This document shows, in pieces, positions 46,625 to 58,199 of a stretch of 64,000 nucleotides of DNA. Location of the stretch: contig CANIWM010000001.1 in the NCBI GenBank assembly GCA_947471505.1, positions 1 to 64,000 on the forward strand, written 5' to 3'. The DNA is from Chthoniobacteraceae bacterium. GTDB lineage: Bacteria; Verrucomicrobiota; Verrucomicrobiia; Chthoniobacterales; Chthoniobacteraceae. The notes beneath the pieces are model-generated. The model was given only the letters and a program-made list of their open reading frames with translations. It was not told the DNA's origin and made no database searches. Within the stretch, counting starts at the first letter, position 1, and each line of letters begins with the position of its first letter. Position numbers and translations under genes: made by a program.

Positions 46625-49600
46625 TCACGGCGCAGGCGTGACTATTCTATAAAAGCGCGCGCCGGTTCCGGGCGTCGGGTCGGCGAATGTCTGCGGACCG
46701 CTTGCCACGGGCGCGATGATTGCGCCGAGCGGCGTCCACGTAGCGAGGTCGGGCGAGGTGAAGACGCGGTAGGTTTTTCCGGCCGCTCCGGGGAATGTGC
46801 CGGTGATGCTGCCGTCGCCGTTTTTTACGGTGCTCGAAATCACGAAGCGGCTTGCGGGGTTGCCGGAATCGGTGCCGGCGAGCCATTCGGCGAGGTTGCT
46901 CTGGCCGTCGCCATCGGCGTCGGTGGGAACGCTGCCGGGATTTGGCGCGAAGGCAAACCAGCGGACTGCTTCTGGCACTCCGGGTGCCTCGGTGCTGCCG
47001 ACGATGAAATGCAACGATGCGCCGGAGCCGTCGGCGGCGAGGGGCCACGGGGCTGTGTCGTTGTAGGTGACCTCTTGAATCGTGCTGTTGCCCGCGTCGT
47101 CGAGCGCGACGCGTTCGCCGCCGTCGCTGAGATTCGTGTCGTTCGCAAACTCGCCCGCGATTCGGAATCCCGCGCCGAACGCCGCGGTAAATGCGGCGGT
47201 GTTTCGGACGACGAAGATGCGTTCGCCGGGCGCGAGCGTGGAGGCGGTGAATGTAAACTCGACGCCGTCGCTGAAGTGAATGCCCGTGAGGTCGAGCGTC
47301 ACGGACGTGCTCGTGTTTTGCAGTTCGATGAACTCCGCGAGACCATCGCCGGGCGGGTGATAGTGCAGCTCGGTGATGCGCAGATGCTGCTGCGCCGGGC
47401 TCGGCGTGGCGGGAAGTGTGATGCTCGCTATCGTGGTTCCGGTGACGTTTTTGAGCGCGAGCGTTTCGCCGAGATTGTTAAGGTGACCGGACGCGTCGCC
47501 GGTGACGAGTCGTCGTTCTGCGCCGCGCGGTCCGGTCGTGCGCTGGCGGAATGCGTAGCGGTTTGGCGTGACGTAAATACTCTCGCCGGGGAGCACAACG
47601 GTGCCGCCTTTGAACGTAAATGTGACGCCGCCGCTGAGTATCCAGCCGCTCATATCCACGGATGCGGTGCCGGTGTTTCGCAGCTCAATGAACTCCTGAT
47701 CCTGGAAACCGCTCGCGGGATTCGCCTCGATGTCGCCAAACGTGATTACGGGCGCAGAGGGCTGGCTGGCTGGGATTCCCGCGCTGCCGACTCCGGTCGA
47801 GAAGTTCAGCGTCTCGGGTGCCGCGTGAGTGGTCATGAGATAGCCGGTGCGCGGCGCGAGGTATTCATTTTTGATGCGGTCCATCGCTTGCGTGAGCGTG
47901 ACGATTCCGCCGCCGCTCCAATTGAAATGCGAGTTCGCGCCCCACTTCGCGCGGTCGGCGTCCACGTCGGCCTGGAGCAGGGGCTTGAGCACGTCCATGC
48001 GGTTTTGAAACCAGTTCGTCGCAAGAAATTGATCGCTCATCGCCCGGATGCGACGCACGAGCATGGCGCGGGTGCGCGGATTGCCGACGATGGCCTCCTG
48101 CAAGCGGTTGAACTTGTTCGCCTGCAACTGCCACGGGCGCACGCCGAGGAACGGATGGCTCGCGCATGCTGGAGTGGACGGCGAGTTTTGCGAATAGACG
48201 ATCGTGTCGGTGTTCAACGCGTCGGGCCCGAGGCTGAGGTCGAGATCCCACGGGATGAACATCCATTCGCGCGAGCCGTCGCTGTCGCGATACATGAAGT
48301 AGTTTTTGTTCGATGCGTCGATGTTCTGTGTGATGGCGACGCCCGCCATGAAGTTCACGACTTGCGGCACATCGAGGTTGTCAAAGAGCCACGTCTCCAG
48401 CGCAGTGCCGGTGAGTCCCATCGCGGTGACGAGCGCGTCGAGGTCGGTGTAGCCTTCATCGAGCCGCGTCTTTTTGTCGAAAGCGGACGCCACTGTGAAA
48501 TCGCACGCGCCGTGGTCGCCGACGGCTTTGTAGTAAGAGCCGTCAGGGTCAAGACCGTAGCGTCCGAGGAAGTCGCCGTCGGGCTGCTCGACGTAGAGGG
48601 CCACGGAATAAAACGCCCCGTTTTGCCGGACGTGGACGGGAAAGATCTCCGGCGTCGCGAGACCGGTGGCGCGGTACATTTCGCTCACCACCTGCGCGCG
48701 AACGTAGCTTTTGTCGGTAAACGTCGTGTTCAGGTCGAATTCGTCCACGCGGCCCTGGGTGGCGCGCAGGCGGAACTTGTGACCTTTGTTGAACTCCACT
48801 TTGTAGCTCTTTTTCGGCCAGCCGATGGACGTGTTGCCTCGGATGCGCGTGAAGCAGTTGTCGTAAAACTCGCCGTCGTAAAACATCTCGCAACGCGTGC
48901 CGGTGATGAGTTCCGCAGCCGCCGCATTTTCGACAAAGCGGTGGATGACCGGCAGTGGCGACGTGATGCCGGGGTCCGCAATCACCGTACCTTCGTACTC
49001 CGGCGATTCCGTAATGAGACGACGCGGCGCACGAGTGGTGCGCCCTTCAGAAGTGACGGCGGTGACGTTCCAGCGGACCATCTGCCCCGCAGCCGCGCCG
49101 AGCGACGCGGGGATGGTTCCGACGAAAAAACCGTCGCCCGCGACCGTGTCGCCATTCAGCCCGTCGTCGTGCATCGCGACGGTCTGCTCGGCACCGTACA
49201 TCAGCCGATACCGCAGCGTGGCGCTGGCGATCGTATTTACCGCGGCGGTAGTCTGGTCAGGGCGAATACGCGCCGTGACATTGATGGCCTGTCCCGCCGT
49301 CGGCGCGAGTGGAAGATGCGAAAGCTGGCTGATCAGCGCACCGCGCGGCTCCAGCGGCGCGACGTTCGGCTGACCGGGCGTCGGCACCGGGAAGAACGCT
49401 GTCTGCGTCCCGGCATTTTGCAGGCCGAAGCTCATATTGGTCTCGGCGGGGTAGTGCGGAAAAGTCTGCCCCGCAGTGAACACAAGCGGCGTGTTGAAGC
49501 GATGTACAATTGTGACGCCGTCTGGCGCGACGAGCGCGAGGTCCTCGCCATCCACATCGATCTGGAAATTCGTATGCAACGGCTGCCCCGCGACACGGCG

Positions 49601-51421
49601 GTTTTTCCCGCTCGCCCACACGAGCAGGTATTGTCCGCCGTTGATCGTCACTGCCGGGAAGCGCCATTTCACGAGGTTCGTGGGGACATCGGTGAGGTAG
49701 TAGCCGTTCAGATTCACCGCAGCGCCGGTGCCGTTATATAGCTCGATCCAGTCCGACGAATCGCGGTCCTCGTCTTCGATTCCGCCTACGTTGTCCGCCA
49801 TGTATTCGTTGATGACGAGCGCCGTCGGCGGCGTTGGCGGCGCAGCGTTTGTGATGTCGAGGCCTGCCGAACCCGCAGCGAAAAGATTGTAGATTTCACC
49901 CGCAGACAACGACCGGTTCCACAGCGCCACATCGTCGATGAGCCCCTGCCAGTGACTGTCCGTCGAAGCCCCTACAATTTTCGCCCCGATGCTCAGCGCT
50001 TGCGGCGGAGTGAAAAGCGCGCCGCTGTAAGCCGTGGACGCCACTTGCAGTCCGTTGCGATACACGCGGAGATTTGTGCCATCCGCCGTGCAGGCCACGT
50101 GCTGCCACGAACCCGTCGGGAAAACGCCCGCTTCCTTCGCGCTCGGATTTCCACTCGTCAGCCCGATGTAATTGCTCAGCTCCCCCGTTCCCGAATCCAG
50201 GCCGAAATGAAACTCCCCGTACCAGTTTTTCACGATGCTCGCCCATACCGGACGCGAATCCGCCCACACCCACGCAGAGATGGCGTAGTTCGCCGCAGTC
50301 TTCGGGAAGTTCGGCACGATCACGTGTTCGCTCGTCGAGCCCGCCGCAAACCGCAGCGCACCGCCCACTTTCCCCGCCGTCCAATACGCATTCGTCGCAG
50401 CGGAGAAATTCGTCAGCGTCCCGCTATTGTGCTGCCCCGAAGTATCCGCCGCCGTCCCGCCCATTGTTTCATCAAAGCGCCAGTAGCCCGCGAGATTTTG
50501 CAAAATCCCGCTCCCCGCCGGAGCCAGCGGCAGCACCGTTGCCAGCGTCGCCGCGCTGCTCGTCGCCGAGCCCTGGGGATTCGTCACCACCACGTCGTAA
50601 TTCGCCGCATCGCCCGCCGTCACCGGCGAAATCGTGTATGTCGCCGACGTCGCGCCTCCGATGGGCACCGTGCCCTTCCGCCATTGATACGTCAGCGGCA
50701 CACCGCCCGCCACGACCGAAAACGTCGCCGTCCCGCCAATCGGCTGAGTCTGCGAACGCGGGGCCGTGCCGATCACCGGCGGCGACGCCACTTCCTCCGT
50801 GAGCGCCACCGCAGAAATCGCCGGATTCCCCGACAAATCCGCCAGCCCCCGATCCAGCCGCAGGTCGATGCCATCCGCATCCGCCACCGTGCGCAGCCGC
50901 AGCACCCGATTGTAAGGGCTGCCCACCGGGACCAGCCAATCGTTCTTCGCCATCACCCCATCCACCAGCACATCCATCACGCGACCACCCGACGGCGCAA
51001 ACGCATCCAGCGCGAGAATCTCGATGATGTAAGTCTTCCCCGCAGTCGCCGCGAGTTTCATCACAAAAAAGCCCGAGCCCCCATGCAGCCCGCCCTTGCT
51101 GAGCGAGTCCCGCGCCGCCTGCTCCGGCACCCCCGTCCACGTAAAACCGCCAATCGCATAAGTCAGCGGAGCCGTCGTGAAAGTGATCCCCGTCGCCGCA
51201 TCATTCACGCCGAGATTGCCCGTCAGCGTAGCCCCGAGAAGCGTCACCGTTGGCGCATTCGCCACGCTGTTTCCGAAGTTCCACCCCTTACTCGTCGCAT
51301 TGCGATAGCTAAGGAAATCCGTAGCAAACCCCCAAACCGCCGTATCCGAAACCACCTCCACAGCCCACGACGCGCTGGAGCTACAAAACAGAAGTGCTGC
51401 GAGGAAAAGAAGACGTTTCAT
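46625..51421 (-). CDS. Giant secreted CotH / LamG / lamin-tail protein
   Basis: This 1598-residue protein has signal peptide MKRLLFLAALLFCSSSASWA. In order it shows an Ig-like domain (about 212-295, YQWRKGTVPIGG), a LamG/concanavalin-like domain (330-514, SAWVWADSRPVWASIVKN), a lamin-tail domain (535-647, LVINEYMADNVGGIEDEDRDSSDWIELYNG) and a CotH kinase-like domain (about 847-1075, IRGNTSIGWPKKSYKVEFNKG and MFIPWDLDLSLG). Two more lamin-tail domains (1227-1335, 1354-1457) and a thrombospondin-3-like segment (DADGDGQSNLAEWLAGTD) complete it. CotH kinases phosphorylate secreted proteins in spore-formers. Here the architecture suggests a surface or extracellular role. ATG 51421 gives the signal peptide. 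A frame extends 57 codons upstream without support. Confidence 0.85.
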   Translation of the reverse strand: MKRLLFLAALLFCSSSASWAVEVVSDTAVWGFATDFLSYRNATSKGWNFGNSVANAPTVTLLGATLTGNLGVNDAATGITFTTAPLTYAIGGFTWTGVPEQAARDSLSKGGLHGGSGFFVMKLAATAGKTYIIEILALDAFAPSGGRVMDVLVDGVMAKNDWLVPVGSPYNRVLRLRTVADADGIDLRLDRGLADLSGNPAISAVALTEEVASPPVIGTAPRSQTQPIGGTATFSVVAGGVPLTYQWRKGTVPIGGATSATYTISPVTAGDAANYDVVVTNPQGSATSSAATLATVLPLAPAGSGILQNLAGYWRFDETMGGTAADTSGQHNSGTLTNFSAATNAYWTAGKVGGALRFAAGSTSEHVIVPNFPKTAANYAISAWVWADSRPVWASIVKNWYGEFHFGLDSGTGELSNYIGLTSGNPSAKEAGVFPTGSWQHVACTADGTNLRVYRNGLQVASTAYSGALFTPPQALSIGAKIVGASTDSHWQGLIDDVALWNRSLSAGEIYNLFAAGSAGLDITNAAPPTPPTALVINEYMADNVGGIEDEDRDSSDWIELYNGTGAAVNLNGYYLTDVPTNLVKWRFPAVTINGGQYLLVWASGKNRRVAGQPLHTNFQIDVDGEDLALVAPDGVTIVHRFNTPLVFTAGQTFPHYPAETNMSFGLQNAGTQTAFFPVPTPGQPNVAPLEPRGALISQLSHLPLAPTAGQAINVTARIRPDQTTAAVNTIASATLRYRLMYGAEQTVAMHDDGLNGDTVAGDGFFVGTIPASLGAAAGQMVRWNVTAVTSEGRTTRAPRRLITESPEYEGTVIADPGITSPLPVIHRFVENAAAAELITGTRCEMFYDGEFYDNCFTRIRGNTSIGWPKKSYKVEFNKGHKFRLRATQGRVDEFDLNTTFTDKSYVRAQVVSEMYRATGLATPEIFPVHVRQNGAFYSVALYVEQPDGDFLGRYGLDPDGSYYKAVGDHGACDFTVASAFDKKTRLDEGYTDLDALVTAMGLTGTALETWLFDNLDVPQVVNFMAGVAITQNIDASNKNYFMYRDSDGSREWMFIPWDLDLSLGPDALNTDTIVYSQNSPSTPACASHPFLGVRPWQLQANKFNRLQEAIVGNPRTRAMLVRRIRAMSDQFLATNWFQNRMDVLKPLLQADVDADRAKWGANSHFNWSGGGIVTLTQAMDRIKNEYLAPRTGYLMTTHAAPETLNFSTGVGSAGIPASQPSAPVITFGDIEANPASGFQDQEFIELRNTGTASVDMSGWILSGGVTFTFKGGTVVLPGESIYVTPNRYAFRQRTTGPRGAERRLVTGDASGHLNNLGETLALKNVTGTTIASITLPATPSPAQQHLRITELHYHPPGDGLAEFIELQNTSTSVTLDLTGIHFSDGVEFTFTASTLAPGERIFVVRNTAAFTAAFGAGFRIAGEFANDTNLSDGGERVALDDAGNSTIQEVTYNDTAPWPLAADGSGASLHFIVGSTEAPGVPEAVRWFAFAPNPGSVPTDADGDGQSNLAEWLAGTDSGNPASRFVISSTVKNGDGSITGTFPGAAGKTYRVFTSPDLATWTPLGAIIAPVASGPQTFADPTPGTGARFYRIVTPAP

Positions 51422-51603
51422 TGTCGGATGACCGACACCCCTACGCCATCTCCATCGCAGAGCAAAGCCGCAAAGTAAGAGCGGCCTTGCCGGACAGCAG
51501 GCTGGGCGCCTTTTTCGGTTTTTAGAGGAATTCCATAATTTCCGGAGAATACTCGGGCGCTGGCATCTCCGCTGCTTTTCTCCATTTCGCAACTCCAGCC
51601 AAC

Positions 51604-53121
51604 ATGCTCAAGTTTCTAAAAAAGCTATTCACCAAAAACGGCAGAAACGCCAACACGCAAGATCCTTCGACCGCCATCTCGGAAACTCCAACATCGCGGC
51701 ACTCCGGTTCCCACGGCGGTGTCGAGGTTGCGCCGTTGTCGCTCCGGGCAATCCTTGATAAACTCCCTGCCGACCTGAAGTCCACCGTCAACGAGATGCC
51801 CGCGTCCGACGTGAAAGTCGTTCTTCCCGTCGCCGCGATCATGAAGCAGCTCCCGAGCGGTGCAGTTCGGATGTCCCTCGCCAGCCTCTACCGGCAGGCC
51901 CCTAGCGGAACATTTCGATCCACAAACATTGAAGATAAACGCCTCGTCGATGTTCCCCTCTCGGAAATCTTCAAAACCATCAATCCCTCCGCCCTCAAAC
52001 GCCGCGATGACCAACGCCGTTACTCAGTACCGACGGACGCAGTCGGCTTGTTTGACGAAATCCATAACCGCAACGTCACGAGCCCTCAATCCTCTGCCGC
52101 CCAGATCCCTCCGCAAGCGCCGATCCCCGAGCAAAAGCTCCGGATGCCAAGTCAGCCCGTCGTCGCTCCGACTCCCCGTCAAGCCGCGCCTCCGCCCGCC
52201 CCGGTCGCAGAAGCACCGGTGCCGCTCAACCTGACCAGCGAACTCTCATTACTCCTAGTCGAGGTTGCCGCCACTTGGCCGGAAGCGCATCGCAACGCAC
52301 TTTCCATCCTTTCTGGCGACACTCGAATCGTGCTACCCGCATCAGAAATCGGACCTTTGCTCCAAAAAGGGAAAGTCGTATTTCCATGGAGCCAGCTCAA
52401 GCTCCGCCTCCTCCCGATCCCCACCTCCACTATCGGTATCCCGGATGACACCCAACTCTCCCTTCCGCTGAAAATCGTCGCTCCGGCGTTCGTCGCAGCG
52501 ACGGGCGCAAAACGACGGGGCGCCCAAGCAGACACCTCGCTCCCCGACTTCTTCGGCCCCACCGCAGGGCAATTACCGACGCCAACGCCCAAGGCAGCCG
52601 CTCCGACTCCCGCTCCAGTCGCACACCCCGCTCCTGCTGCAAAATTGGCGCCTCCGCCCGTTCAACTCCCCACGGCTCCAGCAATCACACCGGAACCACA
52701 GGTCAACATTACCTCATCCCCTTCAGGAAGGATGCCGATCACTCTGCGCGAGCTATTCAACCTCCCGGACAAGACCAATTGGGCGCCAAACGAACTCGTC
52801 AAACTCACCTGCTCCCTAGCAGGCATCGCCGGAGTCGTCGTCGCCCTTGAAGAAGGCCTCGTCGTCGCGCAGCAACTCCCAGAAGGCCTCTCCTCAGAGA
52901 CCTTCGCAGCCTTCATGCCGCAAGTATTCAGCCGCATGGACCGCTACACTGGAGAGATGCAGCTCGGGGAAACTCACGACATCACCCTCAACACCGAGAG
53001 CGGTGCAATCCGCATGTTCCGCAACGGCAAAGTCTTCTTCGCCGCACTCGGCAAATGCGGAGAGAGCCTCCCCAATCGCCTGCATCTCGTCTGCAACGAA
53101 CTGGCCAGCCAAAACAGCTAA
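51604..53121 (+). CDS. Polarity-module protein: duplicated unknown domain plus roadblock domain
   Basis: This 505-residue cytosolic protein has three parts. Residues of about 38-120 and 205-300 look like two copies of one small beta/alpha unit, each with a V-V-L-P-x-x-x-I segment (VKVVLPVAAIMKQLPSG, TRIVLPASEIGPLLQKG), then a PS-centred turn and a VPL or LPL strand. Pro/Ala-rich linkers separate them. The C-terminal 110 residues (LTCSLAGIAGVVVALEEGLVVAQQLPEGLSSETFAAFMPQVFSRM) form a roadblock/LC7 domain as in MglB. The next genes encode an MglA GTPase and another roadblock protein, so this is likely a regulator or scaffold of that GTPase. The duplicated unit is not one I can name. Confidence 0.75.
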   Translation: MLKFLKKLFTKNGRNANTQDPSTAISETPTSRHSGSHGGVEVAPLSLRAILDKLPADLKSTVNEMPASDVKVVLPVAAIMKQLPSGAVRMSLASLYRQAPSGTFRSTNIEDKRLVDVPLSEIFKTINPSALKRRDDQRRYSVPTDAVGLFDEIHNRNVTSPQSSAAQIPPQAPIPEQKLRMPSQPVVAPTPRQAAPPPAPVAEAPVPLNLTSELSLLLVEVAATWPEAHRNALSILSGDTRIVLPASEIGPLLQKGKVVFPWSQLKLRLLPIPTSTIGIPDDTQLSLPLKIVAPAFVAATGAKRRGAQADTSLPDFFGPTAGQLPTPTPKAAAPTPAPVAHPAPAAKLAPPPVQLPTAPAITPEPQVNITSSPSGRMPITLRELFNLPDKTNWAPNELVKLTCSLAGIAGVVVALEEGLVVAQQLPEGLSSETFAAFMPQVFSRMDRYTGEMQLGETHDITLNTESGAIRMFRNGKVFFAALGKCGESLPNRLHLVCNELASQNS

Positions 53122-53145
53122 CCAACCCGCTTACCAAACACAACC

Positions 53146-53745
53146 ATGGCAATCATCAATCGCGCAACCAAGGAGCTTCAGCTCAAGATCGTCTATTACG
53201 GCCCTGCAAAGAGCGGTAAAACGACGAATCTCGAGCAAGTCCACGCAAACGTCCAAGTGCCCGACGCATCCGCCAAGGGCAAAATGACCTCGCTCGCCAC
53301 CAGCAGCGACCGCACACTCTTCTTCGACTTCTTCCCTCTTGAGGCTACCACGATCAAGGGTTTCAAAACCAAGTTCTCCCTCTTCACCGTCCCAGGCCAA
53401 GTGATCTACAACGCCACACGGCAAATCGTCCTTCGCGGCGTGGACGGCATCGTCTTCGTAGCCGACAGCCAATACGACAAAATGGCCGAGAACATCGAGA
53501 CCTTCGGGCACATGGTGGACAACCTCAAGTCCCTCAACCTGAACCTCGAAGACATCCCCTACGTCATCCAGTACAACAAGCGCGACACCCCCGACGCCGC
53601 GCCCATCGAGTATCTGGAATACGTGCTCAATAACCGCGACATCCAAGTCCCATACTTCGAGGGCGTCGCCAGCAAAACAGAGGGCGTTTTCGAGACACTC
53701 AACATGATCACGAAAATGCTCATCCACAAATATCTGAACAAGTAA
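53146..53745 (+). CDS. mglA: MglA-like small GTPase
   Basis: This 199-residue protein starts MAIINRATKELQLKIVYYGPAKSGKTTNLEQVH, with P-loop GPAKSGKTT. It continues with FDFFPLEATTIKGFKTKFSLFTVPGQVIYNATRQIVLRGVDGIVFVADSQ, where the TVPGQ is the switch II region, and then the nucleotide motif YNKRDTPD (NKxD). This matches MglA, the Ras-like switch that sets cell polarity and motility in Myxococcus and is found in many phyla. It is regulated by roadblock-type MglB. It lies between two roadblock genes, consistent with a complete module. No motility genes are in the window. Confidence 0.93.
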   Translation: MAIINRATKELQLKIVYYGPAKSGKTTNLEQVHANVQVPDASAKGKMTSLATSSDRTLFFDFFPLEATTIKGFKTKFSLFTVPGQVIYNATRQIVLRGVDGIVFVADSQYDKMAENIETFGHMVDNLKSLNLNLEDIPYVIQYNKRDTPDAAPIEYLEYVLNNRDIQVPYFEGVASKTEGVFETLNMITKMLIHKYLNK

Positions 53746-53755
53746 CTCTACGACC

Positions 53756-54244
53756 ATGGCATTTCCTCAACTCCTAGAAGAAGACATGAACTTTTTCGAC
53801 GCCGTCCTCAAAGACGTCGTCAGAAAAAGTGAAGCGATGCTCGCGATGCTCGTAGAGAAAGCGGGCTACCTCATCCACCAATCCGGCTCCACGGAATCCG
53901 TGGACACCGTCACCCTCGCGACGCTCGGCTCCAACGCCTTCAACGCCACCGCCTTCATGGCCCAACTCGTCAACGAGCACAACTTCGCCAGCATGTATCA
54001 GCAAGGCGAGACCTACAGCACGCTCATCCTCAACATCGACGAAAACCTCCTTCTCGTCCTCATCTTCGGAACCCAGCAGACCGTCGGCTCCATGAAATAC
54101 TACGCCGCCCCAGCCGTAAAACAGCTCGCCGAGCAGCTCAAAGTCGCCTCCGCCCGAGGCCACATGGGCCTAGACCTCTGCGACATGGACCCACAAGACG
54201 TCCAAGCCCTCTTCCAGCGCAACGGCTCCCCCGCCAACGCATAG
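53756..54244 (+). CDS. mglB: Roadblock/LC7-domain protein (MglB-like)
   Basis: This 162-residue protein has a single roadblock/LC7 domain: LKDVVRKSEAMLAMLVEKAGYLIHQSG, ATLGSNAFNATAFMAQLVNE, ETYSTLILNIDENLLLVLIFGTQQTVGSMKYYAAPAVKQLAEQL. MglB acts as the GTPase-activating protein of MglA and forms asymmetric dimers at the cell pole. It starts 11 bases after mglA, and a strong terminator follows. A C-terminal helix after residue 135 resembles the tail that binds MglA. The two other module members contain a P-loop or an additional roadblock domain. Confidence 0.88.
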   Translation: MAFPQLLEEDMNFFDAVLKDVVRKSEAMLAMLVEKAGYLIHQSGSTESVDTVTLATLGSNAFNATAFMAQLVNEHNFASMYQQGETYSTLILNIDENLLLVLIFGTQQTVGSMKYYAAPAVKQLAEQLKVASARGHMGLDLCDMDPQDVQALFQRNGSPANA

Positions 54245-54267
54245 CGAACCCAAAAAAACAATCCTAC

Positions 54268-54304
54268 CGCCCTCGGTTGTCCTACCAGCCGAGGGCGTTT
54301 TTTT
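54268..54304 (+). terminator. Rho-independent terminator of the MglA module
   Basis: A perfect nine-pair stem CGCCCTCGG/CCGAGGGCG (54268-54276 with 54289-54297) is followed directly by seven Ts. It lies 24 bases after the mglB stop and separates the module from alaS. Confidence 0.95.

Positions 54305-54548: not shown

Positions 54549-58195
<3,647 letters not shown>

Positions 58196-58199
<4 letters not shown>

Follow-up and report, generated by a model that had tools for sequence, protein, structure and literature searches.

A REP-roadblock protein encoded beside mglA recurs across Verrucomicrobiota, often in the neighborhood of pilB

MglA is a small GTPase that acts as a switch for cell polarity in bacteria outside Verrucomicrobiota. 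In most phyla outside Verrucomicrobiota that we surveyed, the gene pair mglB-mglA stands alone. How the pilus machine reads out the GTP state of MglA is known mainly from Myxococcus, in which the TPR effector SgmX links MglA-GTP to PilB and no contact between MglA and PilB was detected (PMC7519303). MglB has accessory partners in the same organism, as it is stimulated by RomY, a 188-aa protein matching no characterized domain model (PMC9481161), and has a paralogue in MglC (PMC7949163). The survey of Wuichet and Sogaard-Andersen defines Group 1 MglA by a P-loop, an arginine finger beside the G2 threonine, a TVPGQ G3 motif, and NKxD; it also reports that Group 1 MglA can be coupled with a pair of roadblock proteins of the MglB type and notes PATAN proteins near Group 1 MglA (PMC4316618).

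Here, we analyzed positions 1 to 64,000 of a contig from a Chthoniobacteraceae bacterium (CANIWM010000001.1; hereafter, the window), in which a gene that we call P1 (51604-53121, 505 aa), mglA (53146-53745, 199 aa), and mglB (53756-54244, 162 aa) follow one another on the + strand, separated by 24 nt and 10 nt. An intrinsic terminator on the same strand closes the row (54268-54304). Its hairpin, a 12-pair stem followed by 7 T at 54268-54297, has a folding z-score of −5.8, and none of 200 shuffled sequences folded as well. The initial annotation had proposed a three-gene operon with a strong terminator, which these features support. Gene calls were based on open reading frames, and we regard the three coding frames as real because orthologues of P1, MglA, and MglB in relatives (93%, 99%, and lower identity) keep both frame and gene order.

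MglA is a Group 1-type small GTPase, matching T. thermophilus MglA (E 7e-60) and M. xanthus MglA (E 2e-57) along its length. Its P-loop has the standard form that had been noted (GPAKSGKT), and the arginine finger (RT), TVPGQ with its catalytic Gln, and NKRD are likewise intact. The mglB product was rightly described as an MglB-like roadblock protein, with matches to M. xanthus MglB (E 6e-13) and Pfam Robl_LC7 (E 3e-7), roadblock homology over its full length, and a score of 53 bits, well under the cut-off of 200, against the NCBIfam Thermus MglB model. Homology and intact motifs suggest that MglA acts as the GTP switch, with MglB as its GTPase-activating protein. Both resemble their M. xanthus and T. 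thermophilus counterparts, down to an acidic, partly conserved C-terminal tail on MglB. Unlike in those systems, however, a multi-domain third gene precedes mglA, and mglB comes after it.

P1 consists of an amphipathic helix, two repeats separated by a linker, a second linker, and a C-terminal roadblock domain, so its earlier description as a roadblock protein with unknown repeats was accurate. The N-terminal helix (MLKFLKKLFTK, 51604-51636) is cationic and predicted to bind membranes; its hydrophobic moment is 0.71 vs. a mean of 0.27 elsewhere in P1, and no later 11-mer equals it. Many P1 orthologues keep this pattern, which reads M-F/L-x-F-L-K-x-L-F-x-K in the window's family. The repeats are two copies of one module of ~110 aa, here named REP, recovered by HMM at aa 38–151 (51715-52056, E 4e-32) and aa 209–318 (52228-52557, E 3e-23). 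The linkers are Pro/Ala-rich and of low complexity, with very low model confidence, as disorder would give. The roadblock/LC7 domain (PF03259) spans aa 388–504 (52765-53115). It matches Robl_LC7 at aa 397–478 (E 5e-7), the only Pfam match in P1, and solved roadblock domains by Foldseek (E down to 4e-8), with its model resembling Ragulator p14 and MglB. In sequence, the nearest relatives among the profile matches listed were Asgard, dynein, and CvnB proteins, and MglB was absent among them. A single-sequence search of whole P1 against the PDB returned weak roadblock matches only. We also considered P1 as a second MglB and rejected this, because MglB is a ~160-aa single roadblock protein, whereas P1 is 505 aa long, carries REP twice, and has a roadblock nearest to Asgard and dynein proteins among the matches listed.

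REP itself is an undescribed beta-alpha domain. An AlphaFold2 model built from 41 sequences (pLDDT 83, pTM 0.68) contains four strand-helix units, and in the model of complete P1 the two REP copies share their secondary structure. The 41 REP sequences gave no convincing Pfam match (best E 0.04) and REP no match to PDB sequences, and the model gave no significant Foldseek match to PDB folds (best E 2.2). Given these empty searches of Pfam and the PDB, we rejected the reading of REP as a known domain, and the template-free monomer model suggests that it may be a new fold. REP modules were also seen at the N-termini of very long coiled-coil proteins (L110 and L111) in MglA-less members of the family.

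To place P1 within its phylum, we gathered mglA loci from two sets, 97 related genomes at the level of the order and 388 sampled from the phylum, and searched these loci using HMMs of REP, MglA, MglB, and the roadblock of P1. A P1-type gene, defined for Verrucomicrobiota as one encoding REP and a C-terminal roadblock beside mglA, as the window's P1 does, adjoins mglA in 71 of the 78 loci with enough sequence, and in all 22 Verrucomicrobiota loci of a named-genome set that partly overlaps the first. The two genes are colinear in the window's family and its relatives and head-to-head in other classes. Of the seven loci that depart from this, two carry a second type of MglA, and for at least two the genome encodes a REP protein at another site. 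Across the 388 genomes, 35 contained both REP and MglA, 6 MglA only, 3 REP only, and 344 neither (Fisher p ~4e-40, uncorrected for phylogeny); the MglA count omits four genomes whose MglA-like matches were all weak. P1 orthologues hold frame and place from 93% down to ~40% identity. Because a P1-type gene is nearly always found beside mglA, P1 appears to be a standard, uncharacterized component of the phylum's GTPase switch, and P1-mglA-mglB is best read as the form that the MglA polarity module takes in Verrucomicrobiota. The initial annotation had called the first gene unusual; it is instead the norm. Its suggestion of a third component holds, and that component is conserved: the three-gene order recurs in other genomes rather than being absent from other MglAB loci. 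It also held that P1 was undescribed in the phylum, and we met no description of it in the literature searched; within that literature, MglA in Verrucomicrobia surfaced in PMC4316618 and in unrelated work on globin-roadblock proteins alone. Separately, orphan P1-like roadblock proteins (L102-L109) occur in MglA-less genomes of families f6, f13, and f12.

The claimed novelty of a third gene stands in part. In the Verrucomicrobiota loci, that gene combines REP with a roadblock, but a roadblock-only third gene occurs elsewhere: a small stand-alone roadblock occupies the position of P1 in 5 of 53 loci with enough sequence from other phyla (Planctomycetota, BRC1, and Zipacnadia). The two-roadblock systems of PMC4316618 likewise place one MglA beside two roadblock proteins. 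The portion of that survey considered here does not list Verrucomicrobia among the Group 1 lineages or describe a REP-linker-roadblock architecture. Two of the 53 loci (L204 and L207) encode a REP protein with apparent N-terminal transmembrane segments, judged by eye, upstream of mglA, and one of the two has pilM downstream. In 33 of the 53, including Deltaproteobacteria and Geobacter, mglB lies upstream of mglA. Among other multi-component systems, P1 resembles RomY and MglC in being a second partner of an MglA-MglB system, but it differs from RomY in carrying a roadblock, one nearest to Asgard and dynein proteins among the matches listed. The actinobacterial conservons (CvnA-D) also combine a GTPase, a roadblock protein, and extra conserved proteins, and CvnB5 is among the P1 roadblock matches listed. 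By contrast with conservons, no histidine kinase was seen in the P1 row, and the catalytic motifs of this MglA are of Group 1 type.

In the window's family and in Limisphaerales, P1 usually stands head-to-head with a receiver-DUF4388 (PATAN) gene, followed by a gene for a ~240-aa protein that has no Pfam match. In the window, this pair is missing beside P1 owing to a break in homology to the sister genome at 51477, which leaves 51477-51603 (strand unassigned) as the remainder of the intergenic region between P1 and the receiver gene. The pair (REC and Robl2) lies on the same contig at 93.6–95.5 kb, oriented as after an inversion of ~42 kb. Compared with every sampled congener that has sequence at this place, an inversion with breakpoints at 51477 and ~93635 is apparent, and a draft misassembly could produce the same picture. 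Where the receiver gene is usual, a 1655-aa open reading frame (46625-51592, − strand) with LamG/CotH/lamin-tail-like features, recognized by eye, now runs divergently to P1. On the other side of the trio, alaS (54549-58199, + strand, 1216 aa, no stops) has an in-frame insertion at aa ~530–730 that encodes a REP-associated tyrosine transposase (NCBIfam NF047646, E 2e-20) and is flanked by SAGFQPA..ILPG-type repeats. Because two congeners (G006 and G009, 88–95% identity) do not have this stretch, an essential gene appears to have recently acquired a mobile element in frame. The same gene carries tandem 'THPAGQTPSDSPVG' repeats at aa ~312–400, where matches to the AlaS of relatives skip.

Beyond MglA, where P1 has further context, this consists of type IV pilus genes rather than an unrelated system. 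Six families (f3, f4, f8, f10, f11, and f25) have a colinear row encoding a TPR-MshEN protein, PilB, P1, MglA, and MglB; in f32, PilB comes directly after mglB; and in Limisphaerales, a PilT-family ATPase follows mglB. The best NCBIfam match of the row ATPase is type_IV_pilB (TIGR02538), just below cut-off, with gspE second. The presence of this row in many relatives indicates that the module is tied to type IV pili. The trio of the window's family is detached from the TPR-PilB pair, which in the window's own genome lies on contig 2 at ~59–62 kb. In several relatives, TPR-PilB is followed by a decayed MglA that has lost its arginine finger and catalytic Gln, and in some also the P-loop. This pattern is consistent with a past duplication, after which the PilB-adjacent copy would have decayed while a working trio persisted apart. 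The window's genome also contains a second pair of P1-like and MglA-like genes (contig 26, 31010-33764; L080 5011-7764), of which the MglA-like one reads TVPGR, having lost its catalytic Gln as well as its arginine finger, and lies in a reading frame with a GFA-domain (PF04828) extension. We rejected the presence of PilT or PilM as a predictor of MglA, as it did not discriminate: PilT-family matches occur in 95 of the 97 related genomes, with or without MglA. Type IV pili alone therefore do not predict MglA.

One family, f5, departs from this pattern. All eight genomes sampled have a P1-type gene adjacent to mglA, yet a genome-wide search of these eight drafts for MglB consistently returned none. 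P1 therefore tracks MglA more closely than MglB does. The same eight genomes yielded no convincing PilM, no PilT above cut-off, and no TPR protein, so the output in this lineage must be a different one. Genes for ExbB, ExbD, and TonB follow mglA in f5 and were considered as a link to a gliding motor. However, they also occur in pilus-bearing families, after mglB or nearby in the opposite orientation, and are therefore an old neighbor rather than a specific one.

We consider it most probable, at roughly 55%, that P1 is a membrane-attached scaffold or effector that binds MglA and links it to the pilus machine. Several observations favor this reading: P1 adjoins mglA and co-occurs with it across the phylum (71/78 and 22/22 loci; 35/388 genomes with both REP and MglA), it lies in the TPR-PilB-P1-MglA-MglB row, REP proteins stand upstream of mglA even in other phyla (L204 and L207), and f5 keeps P1 and MglA without MglB, along with its missing PilM, PilT, and TPR candidates. 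Moreover, Myxococcus MglA reaches PilB through SgmX rather than by any direct contact detected. We infer binding, membrane attachment, a role in polarity, and the direction of action between P1 and MglA as follows. The roadblock of P1, either by itself or within a roadblock dimer that might include MglB, would bind MglA; the N-terminal helix would anchor P1 at the inner membrane; and the REP modules would dock on a polar landmark or, from the cytoplasm, on the type IV pilus machine, so that MglA-GTP could recruit or activate PilB, the extension ATPase, at a single pole. Such a circuit would work like the MglA-SgmX-PilB link of Myxococcus via an unrelated protein. The proposed role is shared with SgmX, and a TPR protein is also present in the verrucomicrobial row, but P1 itself has no TPR (its Pfam match being Robl_LC7 only), and the TPR protein of the row is ~310 aa with an MshEN domain as opposed to the 1,060 aa of SgmX. 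Counting against this reading are the near-universal presence of PilT with or without MglA, the retention of P1-MglA in f5 with no convincing PilM, no PilT above cut-off, and no TPR protein, the detachment of the trio from TPR-PilB in the window's family, and the orphan P1-like roadblocks.

The f5 genomes also bear on an alternative that we consider rather unlikely, in which P1 regulates the nucleotide cycle of MglA, its roadblock pairing with MglB or acting alone as a co-GAP or exchange factor while REP only positions it. There, P1 is the roadblock partner beside MglA with MglB absent and could therefore supply the GAP function. Roadblock pairs commonly regulate small GTPases, as in Ragulator heterodimers, RomY provides a precedent for stimulating MglB (PMC9481161), and the likeness of the roadblock model to Ragulator p14 and MglB points the same way. 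However, the sequence of this domain is nearer to Asgard, dynein, and CvnB proteins, with MglB not among the matches listed, and a pure regulator has no obvious need for two large conserved REP modules. It is improbable that P1 is a part of the pilus or another machine that is merely co-transcribed with mglAB, its roadblock homodimerizing with no contact to MglA. The row with pilB in many families, REP without MglA on L110 and L111, and orphan P1-like roadblocks without MglA would suit such a part, but P1 stays with MglA in f5 despite the missing pilus candidates, forms a head-to-head pair with mglA in other classes, and follows MglA phylum-wide. Low-complexity Pro/Ala linkers and a Pfam profile empty besides the roadblock might even suggest an artefact, such as a local reading frame or a chance neighbor; this we consider next to impossible, as the survey refutes it: orthologues from 93% to ~40% identity share both frame and location, and a P1-type gene adjoins mglA at 71 of 78 loci.

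Returning to P1 as a scaffold or effector linking MglA to the pilus machine, a bolder version of this reading can be put forward tentatively, at somewhat short of even odds. REP would be a new fold defining a family of proteins that attach to the membrane and dock MglA-type GTPases. P1 would then be the primary MglA partner of the phylum, ancestrally coupling MglA to PilB via the TPR-PilB-P1-MglA-MglB row and retained with MglA where MglB and core pilus genes disappeared from a single lineage. A phylum-wide partner beside MglA, often with PilB, offers a compact, testable alternative to the Myxococcus circuit, and it carries a domain of no described family or fold. The distribution of these genes suggests that a simple roadblock-GTPase pair has been layered upon, from a small additional roadblock gene in Planctomycetota and BRC1 to a fusion of roadblock, REP, and membrane helix in Verrucomicrobiota.
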